From Actinomycetota bacterium (GTDB lineage: Bacteria; Actinomycetota; Actinomycetes; Nanopelagicales; Nanopelagicaceae), in NCBI GenBank assembly GCA_009699205.1, contig WLOP01000002.1, forward strand, positions 124,001 through 188,000: a DNA stretch of 64,000 nucleotides, given 5' to 3'. The notes beneath the pieces were generated by a model. That model was given only the letters and a program-made list of their open reading frames with translations, searched no databases and was not told the origin of the DNA. A program made the translations under genes and the position numbers. Shown one piece after another: positions 16,139 through 25,086 of the stretch (positions within the stretch are counted from its first letter, which is position 1; every line of letters starts with the position of its first letter).

Positions 16139-16987
16139 TCACGCTTCTTCTAGAACAATTAGGTACATTGCGGTGATCACCAGTACTCCGCCGACTGCAA
16201 TTTGCGGAGTCAGAACTTCATGTCCGAAAACCACAGCAAAGAGCGCCGCGAAGACAACTTCCATGGTCAAGATGACAGCGACCTTGGTGGGACTCATATG
16301 TGCTTGCGACCATGTTTGAACAATAAATGCGATTGCTGTGGCAAATAGGGCGGTAAAGATGACAACGGCCCAAACTCCAGTATCGGGCGGAGATTGATAT
16401 CCCTTGGCAAAAGTTCCGGCTCCGGCCATAAGCGCACAGGTTGCTAACTGGACGATGGTAAGTGCGTAGGCATCGCGACCTTTACTCCATTGACCTAAAG
16501 CAATGATGTGAGCGGCAAAAGCTATTGCGCTTCCTAAGACGAGGATTTCCCCGCGCCCCACCGACCACCCGTGGAGCGAGAGGAGTCCGAGCCCAATCGT
16601 TGCAAGAGTTACGTAGATCCACGTTTTCTTTTCGATTTTCTGACGCAATATGACTGCTGCAATGAGTGGAGTGGCAACAACATAGAGCCCAGTTACGAAG
16701 CCTGTAACTGCTGCAGTAGTGAGTTCTAGGCCCAAAGTTTGAAGGATATATCCCGAGCCAAGAAAACAACCAGCAGCAAAACCTTTAAAAAGTAAGTCTT
16801 TGGAGAAATGTTTCACGACTTGCGGGCGAAGAAGAATCATCGCTAAGACCGCTAGTGCAAATCGCGTAAAGAGAAAGCTGTTTACGTCCTGTCGTTTAAT
16901 CGCATCTTTCATTAAGAAAAAAGTAGAGCCCCACATAGCAGAAACTGCGAGTAGGGCGAATGGAGCCATTCGAAGTTTGCGACTCAT
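16139..16987 (-). CDS. EamA (DMT superfamily) transporter
   Basis: 282 aa, about ten membrane segments in two EamA repeats; N-terminal APFALLAVSAMWGSTFFLMKDAI is typical. Substrate unknown; the family exports amino acids and metabolites. The start overlaps the nfo stop as ATGA, so nfo and this gene are translated from one transcript. Linkage to a DNA-repair endonuclease is probably positional only. Confidence 0.82.
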   Translation of the reverse strand: MSRKLRMAPFALLAVSAMWGSTFFLMKDAIKRQDVNSFLFTRFALAVLAMILLRPQVVKHFSKDLLFKGFAAGCFLGSGYILQTLGLELTTAAVTGFVTGLYVVATPLIAAVILRQKIEKKTWIYVTLATIGLGLLSLHGWSVGRGEILVLGSAIAFAAHIIALGQWSKGRDAYALTIVQLATCALMAGAGTFAKGYQSPPDTGVWAVVIFTALFATAIAFIVQTWSQAHMSPTKVAVILTMEVVFAALFAVVFGHEVLTPQIAVGGVLVITAMYLIVLEEA

Positions 16988-17841
16988 CCGCGCAATTTCT
17001 TGAGTAGCGCAACTTCTTTGCCGTGTTCAGGTTCTTGCCCCGGTGTTTCCAAAATCAATGGGGCGTTAACTATAGATGGATGGGCAAGAAGTTCTTTGAA
17101 GGGATCCACTCCTATTTTTCCATCACCGATACTTTGATGGCGATCTTTGAGCGCACCACAAACATCCATCGAATCATTGGCGTGGATCAATTGAATTCGT
17201 TCGGCTCCTGCGATTGAAACTAGGAGATCAAGGGTTTGCGTCATTCCGCCCTTAGTGGCAATGTCATGGCCAGCGGCAAAGACATGGCAGGTGTCGAGAC
17301 AGATACCGACCTTTGGATGATATTCGAGGGCTTCGAGATAATTGGTGAGATCTTCCAAGCGCTTGACGAGGGATTGACCTTGGCCAGCGGTTGGTTCAAG
17401 AAGCAAAGTGGGAGAATCATCGCTCAGCGCATTGAGAATGGGCATCATTCCTTCGTGAATTTGTTTCCATGCATTAGCCACATGATTCACATCCACTGCC
17501 GAACCCGTATGTATTACTACGCCTAAGGCGCCTATTTCTTTGCCCCGCTTAAGTGAATATGCCGTGGACGCTAAAGAATTTTCGTAAGTACCAACTGTTG
17601 GCGAACCTAAGTTAATCAAAAATGGCGCATGTACATAAGTTGCGATATCTAGATCTGCCGCTAATGAACGAAATGCTTCATCTGCGTCAACATTGGCTTC
17701 TGGCATCGCCCATCCGCGAGGGTTAGAGGCAAATACTTGGATCGCTTCTGCTTTGATTTCTTTGGCGTAAGCAATTGATCGTTTCGCCATTCCACCAGTG
17801 GTGGGAACGTGTGCCCCAATGCGGGGTCGGGTCGCGGACAT
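16984..17841 (-). CDS. nfo: Deoxyribonuclease IV (endonuclease IV, AP endonuclease)
   Basis: 285 aa, a TIM-barrel AP endonuclease 2 family protein. Metal-binding signatures are present: VIHTGS, LLLEPTAG, GICLDTCHVFAAGHD and QLIHANDSMD. It cuts DNA at abasic sites, probably using three metal ions as in E. coli Nfo, and works in base-excision repair. TAGGGT-N6-ATG supports the start and an independent promoter just after pknL. The downstream EamA gene is coupled by overlap. Confidence 0.94.
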   Translation of the reverse strand: MSATRPRIGAHVPTTGGMAKRSIAYAKEIKAEAIQVFASNPRGWAMPEANVDADEAFRSLAADLDIATYVHAPFLINLGSPTVGTYENSLASTAYSLKRGKEIGALGVVIHTGSAVDVNHVANAWKQIHEGMMPILNALSDDSPTLLLEPTAGQGQSLVKRLEDLTNYLEALEYHPKVGICLDTCHVFAAGHDIATKGGMTQTLDLLVSIAGAERIQLIHANDSMDVCGALKDRHQSIGDGKIGVDPFKELLAHPSIVNAPLILETPGQEPEHGKEVALLKKLRG

Positions 17842-17845
17842 CCGC

Positions 17846-19732
17846 TTACCCTACTGTGATGGTGACCGTACTGCCACGTTTAACTTTAGTTCCATTGGCA
17901 GGGGAAATATTCTTCACTTTCCCGCCTTTGCCTGTGATCTCAACTACGAAATCCAAGTCCACGAGCATATTCTGCGCATCAGTGAGACTGAGCGAGTAAA
18001 CATTTGGCACAGAAACCCATTCGGAACCTTGCGATATCACGATAGTAATCTTTGAACCTTTATCGGCTGTTGGCGTTGTCGGAGTTTGTGAAATCACCGC
18101 AGTCACAGGAACGATGTCGCTAAATGCATATTCCGAAGCCACATCAAAGCCTGCATCGGTTAATTCGTTGAGCGCTTGCTCTCCACTTAAACCGACGTAG
18201 GAAGTAAGCGCCACCTGCTCGGCAGCTTTGCTCACAACAAGGTTGATAAGAGCATCACGTTCTAACTTTGTTCCAGCTTTAGGTGTAGAGCTAATTACGA
18301 GTCCAGCGACCAGCCCTGCTTTATATTCTTCAACAACGGTTCCCATTGTGAGAGGTTGCGATGTGATGAGGGCAGTTGCCGCTTCTAGGGTTAAACCTTT
18401 GAGGACTGGAACTTCATAACGTTCGGCACCCTTAGAGAGAGTGACTCCGACAACTCCTCCTTCGCCGACTCGGCCACCACCACCGGGCTTCGAGGAAATA
18501 ATCTTGCCCTTAGGGATATCTTCGCTAAAGGTTTCTTCGTTAATCTCGAGAGATAAGCCGAGAGGCTTAAGAGTTTTCTTTGCTTGATTGATGGTCATTC
18601 CAGCAATAGATGGAACAACAACTTTTGCGCCAGGTCCGACAACGAGAAACCATATTCCGGCAGTGAGGGCAACTATGAGCGCAAGTGCGATTTTGCGATT
18701 TCTCTTCACGCGCGCACTCGTGACTTGTTTTTTGCTCTTGGAAGCTTTGCTCTCGGTGGCCATAGGAGACACTGTCTCAGGTTCGGCAGGGTTATTCGAC
18801 TGCGCAACTCGGGGAGATTTGCGAGATTTATCTCGCACAGGTGCTGGCGGAAGATCAAGTTCTAAGCTCATCTGTACTCGTTTTGGGTCCAACAAAAGCG
18901 CCACCCGATGGAGAGATTCCAGGAATGCCCCAGCATCGCGCGGGCGCTCATCTGGATTACCGCTAGTAGCGCTCAGGATTAAAGCATCAAATTCGGGGGA
19001 GACTGCCGGATTGAGGGTTGACGGGGCAGGAACTTTTTCGTTGACATGCTTGTAAGCAATTTCTATGGGTGTTTCGCCTTGGAAAGGCTTTTCTCCGGTA
19101 AGAAGTTCAAAGGCAAGTATCCCCACGGCATAGACATCACTGCGCGCATCCGCAATGCCACGTTGGACTTGCTCCGGAGAGAGATAAGAAACGCTCCCGA
19201 GGATGACGCTTGATTCGGCGGTAAGTGTAGAGCCGATCATTTCACCATGAGCTAAACCAAAATCTGCAATCTTCACTCGACCATTGTGAGAAATTAATAT
19301 ATTTTCAGGTTTCATATCTCGGTGAACAATTCCAATTCTGTGGGCAGCAGCAAGTGCGCTAAGAACTGGAGTTAAATACTTGATGGCCTCGAGTGGAGCA
19401 AGCGCTCCCTTTTCGAAAATATAATCTCGCAAGGTATGACCCTCAACATATTCCATGACCAAGAAAACGGCGGGGACTCCACTTTGATTCCATCCTTGAT
19501 CTTGAACAGAAACTATATTGGGATGGGAGAGCGCGGCCGAGGCTTTGGCTTCTCGGATGAAACGAGATACGAAGGCTTCATCATTTGCTAAGTGAGGGTG
19601 CATGATCTTCACGGCAACTTTGCGATCGAGGCGAGTATCAAACCCCTCATAAATCGTGGCCATTCCGCCTGTAGCTATTTGCTTAATTAATTCATAGCGT
19701 CCATCGATGATTTCACCAGAAAGATCGGACAC
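17846..19732 (-). CDS. pknL: Serine/threonine protein kinase with PASTA repeats (PknL type)
   Basis: 628 aa. Kinase domain about 10-270: glycine loop IATGGMATIYEG, lysine in VAVKIM, catalytic HRDMKPEN, DFG as ADFGLA, activation loop and SPEQ. A Ser/Ala-rich linker leads to one membrane segment (KIALALIVALTAGIWFLVVG), then four PASTA repeats outside the cell, which bind muropeptides or lipid II in relatives. Position between a class II DAHP synthase and a GGPP synthase matches mycobacterial pknL. Likely role: sensing wall state and phosphorylating division or metabolic proteins. The GTG start is supported by TATGAT-N6-GTG. Confidence 0.9.
   Translation of the reverse strand: MSDLSGEIIDGRYELIKQIATGGMATIYEGFDTRLDRKVAVKIMHPHLANDEAFVSRFIREAKASAALSHPNIVSVQDQGWNQSGVPAVFLVMEYVEGHTLRDYIFEKGALAPLEAIKYLTPVLSALAAAHRIGIVHRDMKPENILISHNGRVKIADFGLAHGEMIGSTLTAESSVILGSVSYLSPEQVQRGIADARSDVYAVGILAFELLTGEKPFQGETPIEIAYKHVNEKVPAPSTLNPAVSPEFDALILSATSGNPDERPRDAGAFLESLHRVALLLDPKRVQMSLELDLPPAPVRDKSRKSPRVAQSNNPAEPETVSPMATESKASKSKKQVTSARVKRNRKIALALIVALTAGIWFLVVGPGAKVVVPSIAGMTINQAKKTLKPLGLSLEINEETFSEDIPKGKIISSKPGGGGRVGEGGVVGVTLSKGAERYEVPVLKGLTLEAATALITSQPLTMGTVVEEYKAGLVAGLVISSTPKAGTKLERDALINLVVSKAAEQVALTSYVGLSGEQALNELTDAGFDVASEYAFSDIVPVTAVISQTPTTPTADKGSKITIVISQGSEWVSVPNVYSLSLTDAQNMLVDLDFVVEITGKGGKVKNISPANGTKVKRGSTVTITVG
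17848..17853 (-). promoter_or_regulatory. -10 hexamer of nfo
   Basis: TAGGGT is followed by 6 nt and the ATG at 17841. It overlaps the last codons of pknL, so nfo can be transcribed independently without a leader. Confidence 0.5.
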
Positions 19733-19780: not shown

Positions 19781-20335
19781 TTATCCGATTGTGGAAAGGA
19801 CGAACAATGCATTTTCGCGCGTTCGGTCGCGGATGAATAGTTCTTCTTCATCCCTCTGCCAATGCACCATTTTTTCCGAGATTCCAGAACCATCACGTTC
19901 TAGAACACGTTGTAGGCCAAGAGCAGGGTCGATATCAAGCCATATTGTCGCTAGAGCGAATTCGCGAACGACGGCTTGGGAGCTACCCACCCCTTCAAGA
20001 ATAAGAAGGTCGCATGGAGAGATTTCGCGTTCAGAATCAAATGAAGAAGTGGCCCAGTTATAGACGGGCAGCAAAAAACTCTCTTCGCGCGCAAGGCTTT
20101 CGAAGATACGTGACAGGGTCTCGGTGAGGTGAACTCCCAAGGCGTTCGACCACCCATCATAGATTTCATCGAGATGAATTACCGTGATGAGGCGATTGCT
20201 GCTTAAACCCAAGAAAAGTTCGTGTGCCAAAGTAGTCTTCCCTGCGCCAGCTCGCCCATCAATTGCAATGACGCGAGTGGAGCCATGAGGCGGTGATTGG
20301 GTGAGGAGATCTTCTAATGCAGAAACGAGATTCAT
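19781..20335 (-). CDS. P-loop kinase of the uridine-kinase-like group, second gene of a TPP-controlled operon
   Basis: 184 aa. Walker A is AIDGRAGAGKTTLAHEL, followed by an acidic HLDEIYDGW motif, a Walker B-like LLILEGVG and a lid region RDRTRENALF. The fold matches small nucleoside/uridine-kinase-like phosphotransferases, but no specific substrate signature is visible. The start (ATGA overlap with the transporter stop) makes it the second gene under the TPP riboswitch. Since PnuC-type transporters need a kinase to trap their substrate, thiamine or a thiamine precursor is the best guess. That function is inference; a general nucleoside kinase remains possible. Confidence 0.75.
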   Translation of the reverse strand: MNLVSALEDLLTQSPPHGSTRVIAIDGRAGAGKTTLAHELFLGLSSNRLITVIHLDEIYDGWSNALGVHLTETLSRIFESLAREESFLLPVYNWATSSFDSEREISPCDLLILEGVGSSQAVVREFALATIWLDIDPALGLQRVLERDGSGISEKMVHWQRDEEELFIRDRTRENALFVLSTIG

Positions 20336-20907
20336 GCCCGTGAGACTTTCATGAGCCAACGTCGCCAACCGATAATCGCCATAAGAGTGAATGCAATGTA
20401 GAGGGCTCCGGTAAACCAATAACCTAGGTAGAAATACTCAATTGTTGCAACTGCATCGACAACGAACCACATCGGCCAATTCTCATATTTCTCATAAACC
20501 ATGAGGATTTGCGCCAAGAAACTCCCGAGAAAGATAAAGGAGTCAGACCAAGTGGCAGTAGCGCCAATTTTATGCAGAGCCGGTGCCAAGAGAATCCAGG
20601 AAATCAGTAATGCAACAGTGGAGTATGCGATGGCCCTGCGAGAAAGTTTTCCAGGGATCGCGCCTGTCGGAGCCCATCCAAACCACCCCCAGACTGCTGC
20701 TGCGATAAAGATTAATTGAAGTGCGGCGCTGGCAATGAGATCTACTTGATAAAAAAAGATTCCGTACAACGCGCTGCTAATTATCCACCAAGGCCATGTG
20801 ATGCGTTTTGCAGTAATTCCGTAACCAACTCCTATAAATGAAGTGAGAGCGGCACAGAATTCAAGAAATGAAAGTTGGTATCCCCAAATTGTCGCAAGAG
20901 TGAACAT
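20332..20907 (-). CDS. pnuT: PnuC-family vitamin transporter, probably thiamine (PnuT)
   Basis: 191 aa, largely hydrophobic with about seven membrane segments. It has the PnuC features WPWWIISSALYGIFF, FIFLGSFLAQILMVYEKYENWPMW and the following VVDAVATIEYF. PnuC proteins are facilitators whose substrate is trapped by phosphorylation; members are specific for nicotinamide riboside, riboflavin or thiamine. The TPP riboswitch directly upstream points to thiamine. ATG start with GGAAGGA 6 nt upstream. The downstream kinase overlaps by ATGA. Confidence 0.85.
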   Translation of the reverse strand: MFTLATIWGYQLSFLEFCAALTSFIGVGYGITAKRITWPWWIISSALYGIFFYQVDLIASAALQLIFIAAAVWGWFGWAPTGAIPGKLSRRAIAYSTVALLISWILLAPALHKIGATATWSDSFIFLGSFLAQILMVYEKYENWPMWFVVDAVATIEYFYLGYWFTGALYIAFTLMAIIGWRRWLMKVSRA

Positions 20908-20910
20908 TTA

Positions 20911-20993
20911 CAGTCCTTCCAATCCCGCATTACCGGAGATGGTCAAACGGTCGGTCTGAATTTCAGACCCTCTCAGCCGTGTCGGCTCCCGTA
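20911..20993 (-). ncRNA. TPP (thi-box) riboswitch aptamer
   Basis: Read on the minus strand, GGGAGCC...GGCTGAGAG starts the aptamer. It is followed by a perfect variable hairpin (GGTCTGAAATTCAGACC) and the second conserved block GACCGTTTGACC...CCGGTAATGCGGG. These are the TPP-binding thi-box elements in order. The 3' arm leads into GGAAGG, which is the ribosome binding site of the transporter 6 nt before its ATG. Control is therefore probably translational: bound TPP hides the site. No intrinsic terminator lies between aptamer and gene. Confidence 0.9.
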
Positions 20994-20999
20994 TTTGTT

Positions 21000-21005
21000 A
21001 CTCTA
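21000..21005 (-). promoter_or_regulatory. Candidate -10 for the TPP riboswitch transcript
   Basis: TAGAGT on the minus strand would start transcription about 7 nt later, at the 5' edge of the aptamer, as expected for a riboswitch leader. Confidence 0.5.
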
Positions 21006-21024: not shown

Positions 21025-21030
21025 ATGCGC

Positions 21031-21363
21031 ATGAGCAAGTTCGGTTACGTTGCGATGCTGGCATTCACCGTTATCGGATCTTTCTGGCTAGAAATTTTCT
21101 TAAAAGTTAGAGTACTTAGGAGAGCAAAGCGGGCGCTGTTGAGTATTGCTCCGGCGGCGCTAATTTTCTTAGTTTGGGATGCCTATGCGATTAGGCAGGG
21201 GCATTGGCGATTTGATGGTAAACAAATTCTCGGTATCTACGGTCCTGGCAATATTCCACTTGAGGAATATCTCTTCTTTATCATCGTTCCACTTGCGGCG
21301 ATTATGACAATTGAAGCTGTCCGAAAGGTCAAAAAGCATTGGACGATGGGGGATGAAAGATGA
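21031..21363 (+). CDS. crtYc: Lycopene cyclase subunit CrtYc
   Basis: 110 aa with three hydrophobic segments. The motif NIPLEEYLFFIIVPLA matches the lycopene-cyclase domain of the heterodimeric CrtYc/CrtYd (fungal CarRA-like) type. The two subunits together close beta-ionone rings on lycopene in the membrane. The ATG at 21025, two codons upstream, is an alternative start. The gene is divergent from the TPP-controlled operon and overlaps crtYd by ATGA. Confidence 0.87.
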   Translation: MSKFGYVAMLAFTVIGSFWLEIFLKVRVLRRAKRALLSIAPAALIFLVWDAYAIRQGHWRFDGKQILGIYGPGNIPLEEYLFFIIVPLAAIMTIEAVRKVKKHWTMGDER

Positions 21364-21650
21364 TGTATACCTTCATCTCACTCTTTGCAGTGCTTATGGC
21401 GACTATTTGTGATCTATATATTCTCAAAGTTGGCTTACTTAAGCGCCGTGGATTTTGGACTTCCTACGCAATAATCCTTCCCTTTCAACTACTCACTAAT
21501 TGGTGGCTCACTTCGCGAGAAATTGTGATGTATAGCCCAGATGCGATTCTTGGTCTGCGCATTGCATCGGCACCCGTTGAAGATCTTCTCTTTGGGTTTG
21601 CCCTAATTCTTAGCGTGCTATCGATGTGGATTTATCACGGCAGACGTTAA
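21360..21650 (+). CDS. crtYd: Lycopene cyclase subunit CrtYd
   Basis: 96 aa, three hydrophobic segments. The motif SAPVEDLLFGFALILS corresponds to the PxE-DxxF signature of the second half of heterodimeric lycopene cyclases. It is translationally coupled to crtYc. Whether one or both ends of lycopene are cyclised cannot be read from sequence; monocyclic gamma-carotene would leave the free end needed by the CruF-like enzyme at 29 kb. It is convergent with crtB, sharing stop-codon bases. Confidence 0.87.
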   Translation: MMYTFISLFAVLMATICDLYILKVGLLKRRGFWTSYAIILPFQLLTNWWLTSREIVMYSPDAILGLRIASAPVEDLLFGFALILSVLSMWIYHGRR

Positions 21651-22516
21651 CGAGCTGCAACCGCTCGAATATAAGCCGGAAGAGCAACTTTGATTCTTCT
21701 CCACTGAGAGGTCTTGGCCCTGTTATTAAAAATATCGTAACCAATTTTCTCTACTTCTTCGACAATTCCACAATAAAGTTCACTGGCCGCTTCAATACAT
21801 GGACGACTCTCGGGAGCCAATAAAGAAATGCCAGGAGTTGCTTCTTTTTGTAATTCCCGAACTCGAGCAATTTGCTCTTTAAGTGCGCTAATAATTTGTG
21901 GTGTGAGAATTTTACGTTCGAGCATCGCTTTATCTACGCCATGAGCCTGCAACTCTTGCATAGGTAAATAGATGCGCCCGCGGTCCAGGTCTTCTCCGAT
22001 ATCGCGAATAAAGTTTGCAAGTTGAAAAGCGATACCTAATTTCTTGGCACTTTCTAGCGCCCCATCAGATAAAGGACCAAGCACTGGAACCATCTCTAGG
22101 CCAATAACGGCTGCTGACCCATAGACATATTCCATGAGATCTTCGTAGGTTTCATAACTTTGAACGGTCAGATCCATCTCCATGGAACGCAAGAATGCGG
22201 CAAAGTATTCGTGGGGGATTTTGAAGCGGTTAACTGTGTCGATTAACGCTCGACCCACATGGTCTTCGCTTTTGCCGCTACGCAAACTTTCAAGAATTGA
22301 ATTCCCCCAGTTCCGCAGGTAGTCAGCTTTCTCTTGGGTAGTTAGTTGTGAGCTCAGATCGTCAACAATTTCATCGGCATAACGCGCGAATCCATAGAGT
22401 GCGTGCACATAGGGCCGCTTATTCTTTGGCAGTAGAAGCGTTGCAAGGTAATAAGTTTTTCCGTGTTTACGATTGAGTCTCTTGCACTCTTGATAAGAGG
22501 CTGCTAAATCATTCAT
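21647..22516 (-). CDS. crtB: Phytoene synthase
   Basis: 289 aa. The first aspartate-rich motif is ARYADEIVDDL, the second LANFIRDIGEDLDRGRIYLP; YCYGSA-like YVYGSAAVIG is also present. It condenses two geranylgeranyl diphosphates head to head into phytoene. It begins directly after the crtI stop and ends the crtE-crtI-crtB operon. Squalene synthase relatives are less likely given the operon context. Confidence 0.95.
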   Translation of the reverse strand: MNDLAASYQECKRLNRKHGKTYYLATLLLPKNKRPYVHALYGFARYADEIVDDLSSQLTTQEKADYLRNWGNSILESLRSGKSEDHVGRALIDTVNRFKIPHEYFAAFLRSMEMDLTVQSYETYEDLMEYVYGSAAVIGLEMVPVLGPLSDGALESAKKLGIAFQLANFIRDIGEDLDRGRIYLPMQELQAHGVDKAMLERKILTPQIISALKEQIARVRELQKEATPGISLLAPESRPCIEAASELYCGIVEEVEKIGYDIFNNRAKTSQWRRIKVALPAYIRAVAAR

Positions 22517-24001
22517 CTATTTAACCGGGCCAACGATTCGTTCTGCGGCCAAGCGTCCAGAAATTAGGACCATGGGCACACCAACTCCGGGTTGAGTTCC
22601 AGAGCCGGTAAAAACTACATTTTCGAAACCCCTTGCAAGATTGCGCGGTCTGAAAGGCCCGGTTTGAAAGAAGGTATGCGCACTGGCAAATGGAGCGCCA
22701 CGTTCCATGCCTTGTGCTTGCCAATCCAGGGGAGTAGTCATCGATTCCACTTCAATTGAGTCACCGAAGTATGTGTAACCACGCTCTTCAAGAGTCTTAA
22801 TCATCTTGTCGCGATATGGGCCTGCTTGTGTCCGCCAATCGATATCGGCATCAAGGTTTGGAGTGGGGAATAGCACGTAGTAAGAGCTCTTTCCAGGCGG
22901 CGCTAATTCTGGGTCGTCAAGCGATGGAACTGTGACGAGAACGCTCGGATCAGACATGAGGACTTTTTGATTTATTAACTCATCGAAAACGCCATTCCAG
23001 GATTCACCAAAATGAATATTGTGATGGGCTAAATGTGAGTAACTCTTATTTGATCCAATCAACATCGTTACGCATGAGGGTGAATATTTAAGTCGTTTAA
23101 CTGAAAGCGGAGTTTTGCCAAGCAAATCTCTCCAGGCGACAGGCAAATCAGGGTTGAGTACCAAAACGTCGCATTCGATTCGCTCTCCCTGATCGGTGAT
23201 AGCTGCGCGTGCCCGACCATTGTTATATTCAATTTTGGCGACGTTGGTGTTATATCGAATATCCACGCCATGTTTTTGTGCAGCAGCGGCTAGCGCCCTT
23301 GGGACTGCATGCATCCCGCCCTTAGGAAAGAAAACTCCGTTTACTGAATCCATATATGCAATGACTGCATATATTGCCAACGCTTGTTGCGGACTGACCC
23401 CTGCATACATTGCTTGGAATGAGTAGACCTTCTGAAGCCTAGGGTCTTTTAAGTATTGGTTGACTTTAGGCGCAAGCTTTCTGAATCCGCCAAGGGCGGC
23501 AAGTCGAGCGAGGTTTGGAGTTAACAAATTCAATGGCGAGTCAATGTTGCGATCTATAAAATCATTCATTTCGTATTTATAGAGTTTGGTGACGAAATCT
23601 ACGTAGCGGCGGTAACCCGCTGCATCTTGCGCATTAACGTTTCGCGCAATCTCAGCTTCCATCTCATCGGTATTGGCATGAACATCTAACTGAGAACCGT
23701 CAGCATAAAATGCTCGGTATAAAGGTGAAACTGCTTTGAGTTCCAGCCAGTCTTCCAATTTCTCACCGACACAATTAAATGCATCATCGATAAGGCTCGG
23801 CATGGTCAGAACTGTGGGCCCCGTATCAAATGAGTAACCCTCTTTTTGTAACAGTCCGTTTCGCCCACCTGGAACTGCTTCGCGTTCTAGGATCGTAACT
23901 TTGCGACCCGCACCTGCTAAGCGCAGTGCGGTGCTTAATCCTGCTAGCCCTGCGCCAACAATGAGAACATGATCGGTCGGACCTTTTACTCTTGCCGGCA
24001 T
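22517..24001 (-). CDS. crtI: Phytoene desaturase
   Basis: 494 aa. N-terminal FAD-binding motif VLIVGAGLAGLSTALRLAGAGRKVTILE, with EREAVPGGRNG. C-terminal carotenoid-desaturase signature NVVFTGSGTQPGVGVPMVLISGRLAAERI. CrtI introduces four double bonds to give lycopene from phytoene. The start shares a base with the crtE stop and the gene abuts crtB, so the three are coupled. The second desaturase-like gene at 26.5 kb is a paralogue. Confidence 0.94.
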   Translation of the reverse strand: MPARVKGPTDHVLIVGAGLAGLSTALRLAGAGRKVTILEREAVPGGRNGLLQKEGYSFDTGPTVLTMPSLIDDAFNCVGEKLEDWLELKAVSPLYRAFYADGSQLDVHANTDEMEAEIARNVNAQDAAGYRRYVDFVTKLYKYEMNDFIDRNIDSPLNLLTPNLARLAALGGFRKLAPKVNQYLKDPRLQKVYSFQAMYAGVSPQQALAIYAVIAYMDSVNGVFFPKGGMHAVPRALAAAAQKHGVDIRYNTNVAKIEYNNGRARAAITDQGERIECDVLVLNPDLPVAWRDLLGKTPLSVKRLKYSPSCVTMLIGSNKSYSHLAHHNIHFGESWNGVFDELINQKVLMSDPSVLVTVPSLDDPELAPPGKSSYYVLFPTPNLDADIDWRTQAGPYRDKMIKTLEERGYTYFGDSIEVESMTTPLDWQAQGMERGAPFASAHTFFQTGPFRPRNLARGFENVVFTGSGTQPGVGVPMVLISGRLAAERIVGPVK

Positions 24002-25086
24002 TAAACGCTCCTACGTATCGCAATCGCGGCAAGCTCATTGAGAAGAGCATGCGCTGAGGGCTCAATTTCATCACGGTTGAGCGCATCTAGCGCGGTGAGA
24101 GTTAGTTTTTCAATCAGTTCTTCCATATGTTCGCGTGCACCAGTTTCGGTGATGATTGTTTGAAGAATTTCGACGCCCTCATTTGTTAAATCTGGGTCAC
24201 CAAAGTACTTGGCGAGCGCGCTTTCTTGAGCTTGGCTCGCGCGGTCGTGAGTCATGGCCATGAGGACAGTGCGCTTTCCTTCGCGCAGGTCATCACCGGC
24301 TGGCTTTCCAGTTGTCGAGGGATCGCCAAAAACACCGAGTAAGTCATCGCGCAGTTGAAATGCTTCTCCAAGTGGTAATCCAAATTCTGAGTAGATATCC
24401 ATGAAGGCCGTGAGCTTCTGCGGGCTCTCAATTGCAAGGCTTGCTCCAAAGTGAAGCGGACGTTCGATTGTATATTTACCAGATTTATATCGTGCAATTT
24501 TTAATGAGCGAGCAACGCTTGACGAACCAAGTGCTTGTTCATGAATGTCCAAAAATTGACCGGCCATTAATTCAATGCGCATCTCGTCATGTATCGCTAA
24601 CGAACGCAACAATGCTTGAGATGAAATCCCGCTGGTGTGAAACATCTGGTCCGACCACACAAGAGCTAAGTCGCCTAACAAAATTGCGGCTGAAGATCCA
24701 TATGAGGTGGGCGAGCCGGTGAGATCTTCATCGTTGTGCATCGCTTCAAAGTGGCGATGAATAGAAGGTTTGTTCCGTCGCGTATCTGATCCATCCATCA
24801 AATCATCATGAATAAGAGCACAAGCCTGAAGGAGTTCTAAACTAGATACGGCTTTAATTACCGCTTCACTCTCGACTCCGCCAGCGGCGAGGTATCCGCA
24901 ATAGGCAAAGAGAGGTCGCAATCGTTTTCCGCCATCGAGAAGAAAAGAGTTCATCGCTTCAGCTACCGGAACGAGCTCGCTGCCAATTTCGCCTAGGTAG
25001 TGAGTTTGCAGTGCCAGATAATCGGTGAGGTCGCGTTGTACGCGAATTCGGATATCGGCTAAGGCGCGCTGCGGTGGGTGGGTCAC
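24001..25086 (-). CDS. crtE: Geranylgeranyl diphosphate synthase (polyprenyl synthetase)
   Basis: 361 aa. First aspartate-rich motif LIHDDLMDGSDTRR, second LRDDLLGVFGD, plus GKRLRPLFAYCG. It makes the C20 precursor used by CrtB. The neighbouring metF and pknL mirror the M. tuberculosis idsA2 region, so idsA is an equally valid name. GTG start supported by TACCGT-N6-GTG. First gene of the crtE-crtI-crtB operon. Confidence 0.93.
   Translation of the reverse strand: MTHPPQRALADIRIRVQRDLTDYLALQTHYLGEIGSELVPVAEAMNSFLLDGGKRLRPLFAYCGYLAAGGVESEAVIKAVSSLELLQACALIHDDLMDGSDTRRNKPSIHRHFEAMHNDEDLTGSPTSYGSSAAILLGDLALVWSDQMFHTSGISSQALLRSLAIHDEMRIELMAGQFLDIHEQALGSSSVARSLKIARYKSGKYTIERPLHFGASLAIESPQKLTAFMDIYSEFGLPLGEAFQLRDDLLGVFGDPSTTGKPAGDDLREGKRTVLMAMTHDRASQAQESALAKYFGDPDLTNEGVEILQTIITETGAREHMEELIEKLTLTALDALNRDEIEPSAHALLNELAAIAIRRSV

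Follow-up and report, generated by a model that had tools for sequence, protein, structure and literature searches.

A variant TPP-type leader and a candidate P-loop thiamine kinase in a predicted thiamine salvage operon of freshwater actinobacteria

Which enzyme starts the conversion of imported thiamine to TPP in freshwater actinobacteria, and what does the RNA leader upstream of the importer gene sense? Both questions are raised by a locus in the 64,000-nucleotide stretch of DNA analyzed here (the window), which comes from an actinobacterial genome of only 1.42 Mb; among named genomes, those of freshwater acI/Nanopelagicales are its nearest relatives. On the minus strand, a leader is followed by pnuT and then by a P-loop kinase gene (Table 1), and the ATG of the kinase gene shares bases with the TGA of pnuT in an ATGA overlap; the coordinates and the overlap given in an earlier note on this DNA are correct by sequence. 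One flank of the operon is a carotenoid cluster (window positions 21025-25086) with genes for a prenyl synthase, crtI, crtB and a split lycopene cyclase, and the opposite flank (16984-19732) encodes a PASTA Ser/Thr kinase and deoxyribonuclease IV. The transporter is a clear member of the PnuC family by domain profile search (PF04973, 124.4 bits, cut-off 27.3).

Table 1. Features of the predicted salvage operon, in window coordinates.
Feature	Position	Strand	Basis or remark
TPP-type riboswitch leader	20899..21002	(-)	RF00059 match extent
Variant P4/P5 arm ACC-ATCTCCG-GTAATG-CGGGATT-GG	20919..20943	(-)	lacks U59/G60/C77/G78/A80 of canonical J4-5
Ribosome binding site GGAAGGA, merged with aptamer 3′ side	20914..20920	(-)	sequence
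pnuT, PnuC-family thiamine transporter (predicted)	20332..20907	(-)	PF04973, riboswitch context, acI prediction (PMC5301498)
P-loop kinase of uridine kinase/phosphoribulokinase fold, predicted thiamine kinase	19781..20335	(-)	PF00485, NF005115, structure model, Foldseek

Part of this arrangement is familiar. The available passages of an acI study (Kang 2017, PMC5301498) describe four acI genomes in which pnuC-like genes follow a THI element and propose PnuT as the transporter, and they note thiamine auxotrophy with nearly all thiamine biosynthesis and salvage enzymes missing. Lineage, leader and transporter are the same as here; the riboswitch control of PnuT, which the earlier note called known in other bacteria, is thus already published for acI itself. 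In those same passages, however, the downstream kinase is given no role and the altered pyrophosphate arm of the leader goes unremarked.

The leader matches the Rfam TPP model RF00059 with 34.3 bits (E = 4.7e-5 in a search of 501 bases and 3e-5 over the whole genome). A strict pattern finds it ahead of pnuT in 133 of the 151 order genomes, and in one more, G105, it departs from that pattern by a single base. The TPP-type leader that the earlier note had read is confirmed, although the note overlooked that its P4/P5 arm is without the canonical pyrophosphate pocket. The score is below the RF00059 gathering score of 54.3 and a default Rfam scan of the window returns nothing for the leader. The match is nevertheless far from chance at genome scale, and the recurrence of the same leader before pnuT across the order, with covarying helices, also speaks against chance. 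The J3-2 T-loop, which recognizes the aminopyrimidine in the TPP riboswitch (PMC3764141), is present with its UGAGA as CTGAGA at 20976-20971 (minus strand) and is invariant among 34 aligned leaders. The 3′ arm of the leader does merge with the ribosome binding site, as the note had claimed; this site is conserved as GGAANGG across pnuT-linked leaders, and the pnuT start codon in the window is an ATG at 20907. Only one other RF00059 match was found in the window genome (contig C12, 18.1 bits), and it was rejected as it lies inside a pyruvate phosphate dikinase-like coding frame and lacks the flanking blocks. Two further weak riboswitch matches occur in G005 and G032 (loci L302 and L303).

In canonical TPP aptamers, J3-2 binds the pyrimidine and J4-5/J5-4 binds the pyrophosphate, and conservation is high at U59, G60, C77, G78 and A80; G78 makes a direct contact, and G60, C77 and G78 lie at a metal site (PMC3764141). 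The pnuT-linked leaders share with canonical RF00059 members P2, P3, the J3-2 CUGAGA, the UAAU loop L5 and a position before thiamine genes, but they lack G60, C77, G78 and the U59-A80 pair of J4-5/J5-4, and their P4 and P5 form a nearly continuous helix. The canonical pocket UG...CGYAGG, with G60 in J4-5 and C77/G78 in J5-4, is found in none of 136 pnuT-linked leaders (134 genomes), compared with 15 of the 16 other TPP riboswitches of the order, which are linked to thiB, thiC, thiO, cytX or ykoE. The sole degraded pocket among these 16 is that of L059:833-941 in G088 (CTGAGTGGG...CCAATACAGGG).

At the site of the former pocket, P5 is extended into a six-pair helix stacked on CC/GG, with one bulged base in many leaders. 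The two pairs at the pocket site covary: among 60 distinct arms, 53 form the first pair and 59 the second, where shuffled arms give 27.6 and 52.5, and none of 2000 shuffles was as high. The RNAalifold consensus structure of 34 diverse leaders shows 98% pairing and 11 doubly changed pairs (0 of 500 shuffles as high), covariation counts that are optimistic because the alignment rows are related. In the window leader itself, the arm (ATCTCCG/CGGGATT) has one extra base and a less regular form. By comparison with canonical aptamers, we classify the pnuT-linked leader as a predicted variant of the TPP riboswitch that has kept the pyrimidine-sensing half and lost the pyrophosphate pocket. The plain label "TPP riboswitch" used earlier is thus half apt: the pyrimidine half is there, and the pyrophosphate-sensing J4-5 is gone in all scorable pnuT-linked members.

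A reason for placing a kinase next to the importer can be sought in what the order lacks. No genome among the 151 of the order, nor among the 227 of the class, encodes a thiamine pyrophosphokinase (TPK; PF04263, TIGR01378) over the cut-off; weak TPK matches were rejected as partial and below the cut-off, and those in the class mostly span about 50 residues of longer proteins. YcfN/ThiK (TIGR02721) likewise reaches its cut-off in 0 of 151 genomes and has no match in the window genome. Of the 151 genomes, 78 show weak YcfN-like matches below the cut-off, and these may possess a further thiamine kinase. ThiE was found in six genomes and is absent from 145, and ThiL is over the cut-off in 133 (149 at E<1e-5), although the genomes are related and counts over 151 are not independent. 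In the window genome, ThiL is encoded apart from the salvage operon (G000:C10:42203-43030). Since thiamine import combined with ThiL, in genomes without ThiE or TPK, requires an enzyme that makes TMP from thiamine, the step predicted to be missing from the order is thiamine to TMP.

We consider it likely that the locus is the thiamine salvage operon of the order, controlled by the variant leader. PnuT would admit thiamine by facilitated diffusion, the kinase would move one phosphate from ATP to thiamine and so trap it as TMP, and ThiL would convert TMP to TPP. The best reading of the kinase is a non-orthologous thiamine kinase that would feed ThiL. Alternatively, the kinase might act as a thiamine pyrophosphokinase and convert thiamine directly to TPP, a possibility that we judge unlikely. 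It would suit genomes in which TPK is missing while TPP is needed, and there is a parallel in Bacteroides, where pnuT is paired with tnr3, described as a pyrophosphorylating enzyme (PMC5613172). However, nearly all of these streamlined genomes retain ThiL even though 145 of 151 are without ThiE, which is understandable only if TMP arises in some other way or is taken up, and the kinase has the fold of enzymes that transfer a single phosphate.

The window kinase belongs to the PRK/URK superfamily (PF00485, 31.1 bits, cut-off 22), the only family whose cut-off it passes, and its AlphaFold2 model is confident (pLDDT 95.6), with uridine-cytidine kinases, the possible uridine kinase 1rz3 and phosphoribulokinases as the best Foldseek hits in the PDB (E 1e-9). 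Its best NCBIfam match is NF005115 (PRK06547), an unnamed family matched by all 44 aligned kinase relatives at E<=1e-5. Fold and P-loop are common to the window kinase, PRK06547 and the uridine kinase/phosphoribulokinase families, but the window kinase is below both curated NCBIfam cut-offs (90.9 bits against 173 for PRK06547 and 31.2 against 220.3 for the uridine kinase model TIGR00235). Among the invariant residues are those of the Walker A motif as well as D56, Y59, W62, W94, E114, R143, R147 and D148; a guess from conservation would be that W62 or W94 stacks on the thiamine ring.

These relationships lend some weight to the view that the kinase has a substrate unrelated to thiamine, for instance a nucleoside, and that only history accounts for its place beside pnuT. 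Among solved structures, uridine-cytidine kinases and nicotinamide riboside kinase are nearest to it, and members of the family occur widely across the class, apparently with no thiamine neighbors in the flanks that were read. Nevertheless, this view is improbable, as the uridine kinase cut-off is far off (31 against 220 bits) and, inside the order, the kinase matches the presence of a thiamine importer exactly, has been kept through six or more transporter changes, and is absent from genomes with de novo synthesis.

The distribution behind this statement is as follows. A loose cut-off gives kinase matches in 148 of 151 genomes, three of which, those of g8 (G034, G059 and G110), are weak and were set aside; the one that was read, in G059, resembles a ParA ATPase. 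In nearly all genomes of the order the kinase gene adjoins pnuT. The tally is 135 genomes of the pnuT-kinase type (including G132, where the contig ends and no kinase is visible), 10 with the kinase and another importer, 4 with de novo synthesis and no kinase, and 2 that could not be assessed; G085, G132, G135 and G141 are not fully scorable, as the contig ends at the locus or the genome is incomplete and lacks it. In the ten genomes without pnuT at the kinase locus, a TPP riboswitch drives ThiB-type genes (nine) or a YkoE-type ECF component (one), and ThiB is over its cut-off in exactly 9 of 151 genomes, all of them kinase-positive and lacking pnuT at the kinase locus, as had been predicted beforehand. 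The kinase tree implies at least six changes of transporter context. In one of the ThiB genomes (G113), the thiB and permease genes are followed closely by a SAM-IV riboswitch (L055:5021-5126, 103.8 bits).

The four kinase-less genomes (G034, G059, G110 and G134) are all ThiE-positive. In the three that were read here, G034, G110 and G134, the slot upstream of the PASTA kinase gene holds thiO and thiG together with a TPP riboswitch, in divergent orientation to thiE. Where the contigs extend that far, nfo follows; on the other side lies the crt cluster in G034 and G110, as in the window, and a prenyl synthase in G134. In genomes with other importers, the kinase gene stands alone in this slot. 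G007 and G043 carry both de novo genes and the kinase, which counts against a thiamine kinase role. Overall, these contexts suggest that the kinase tracks thiamine import and not PnuT as such. The other PnuC-family gene of G113, which we checked (L071:1788-1915), lies behind an FMN riboswitch (96.9 bits) and away from the kinase, a setting that fits a riboflavin transporter (PnuX).

Thiamine precursors are known nutrients of auxotrophic plankton and the specificity of the PnuT family was assigned by inference, but it is highly improbable that the operon salvages HMP or the thiazole alcohol and that the kinase phosphorylates these, given that ThiE, which joins both halves, is absent from 145 of 151 genomes and that G034, with a CytX-type HMP permease, has no kinase. 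Returning to thiamine itself, we infer that it is the substrate of both PnuT and the kinase, with TMP as the kinase product. The salvage of thiamine by PnuT and a coupled kinase, as the earlier note had proposed, is strongly supported by the pathway gap, the transporter swaps and synteny.

Outside the order the picture is different. The kinase family is present in 147 of 227 class genomes and in 128 of the 208 outside the order, where its presence is not associated with ThiE absence (97/56 versus 31/24, p = 0.42). The association test thus gave no support to a class-wide claim that the kinase compensates for ThiE loss, which we rejected. Among the few flanks of best outside-order matches that were read by eye, no thiamine gene was seen except in G278 (L298, L251; 1.5 Mb), a member of another family of the class that carries a variant-type leader, pnuT and the kinase, so the unit is not limited to the family of the window genome. 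The earlier note had regarded orthologues mostly lacking the riboswitch and pnuT as evidence against its proposal; this is the situation outside the order, where the family is common and apparently without pnuT, whereas within the order the context is nearly universal. It is also possible that the kinase could serve thiamine use across the class, as TPK is over the cut-off in none of the 227 genomes.

What the variant leader senses is a separate matter. For E. coli thiM, pyrophosphate is described as mandatory for switching, with thiamine binding about a thousandfold more weakly (PMC4112796). With their pyrophosphate pocket lost, the pnuT-linked leaders may bind thiamine or TMP in preference to TPP; alternatively, TPP may be bound in another manner. 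That these leaders form a distinct TPP riboswitch class sensing thiamine or TMP and not TPP is a suggestion we advance only tentatively. Control would most likely be by repression. At low ligand levels, the GGAANGG site would be exposed and PnuT and the kinase produced; when the ligand is bound, the 3′ side of the leader would fold into the aptamer, mask the pnuT ribosome binding site and turn translation off, and through the ATGA overlap kinase translation would be lowered as well. The overlap agrees with the note's proposal that kinase and transporter are controlled together, but with J4-5 gone, control by TPP is only an assumption. The canonical leaders before thiB (L052, L055, L056 and L060) are longer, with CCGTGCC...GGGCAC-type complementarity before the start, which suggests an expression platform that differs from the direct masking of the ribosome site predicted for pnuT leaders.

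Two further known systems come close to this one. The Bacteroides pnuT-tnr3 operon likewise unites a TPP riboswitch, PnuT and a phosphorylating enzyme, but tnr3 is described as pyrophosphorylating, in place of the uridine-kinase-fold P-loop enzyme and ThiL found here (PMC5613172). E. coli ThiK/YcfN and ThiL provide the same predicted order of reactions, from thiamine to TMP to TPP, but ThiK is of another family (TIGR02721), whose cut-off no genome of the order reaches. A literature search of incomplete coverage returned no report of a thiamine kinase in this P-loop family or of such a riboswitch variant. The new elements, both of them predictions drawn from comparison, are the variant leader and the role of the coupled gene as a thiamine kinase, which is well supported.

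Bacteria of the acI lineage are among the commonest cells in lakes. The kinase assignment would name the acI enzyme, until now nameless, that starts the path from imported thiamine to TPP, and it might explain thiamine use in many Actinobacteria without a pyrophosphokinase. If the leader does sense thiamine or TMP, it would report the balance between import and kinase rather than the coenzyme level. Moreover, the variant leader bears on a possible change of ligand within a riboswitch class that is among the best studied.
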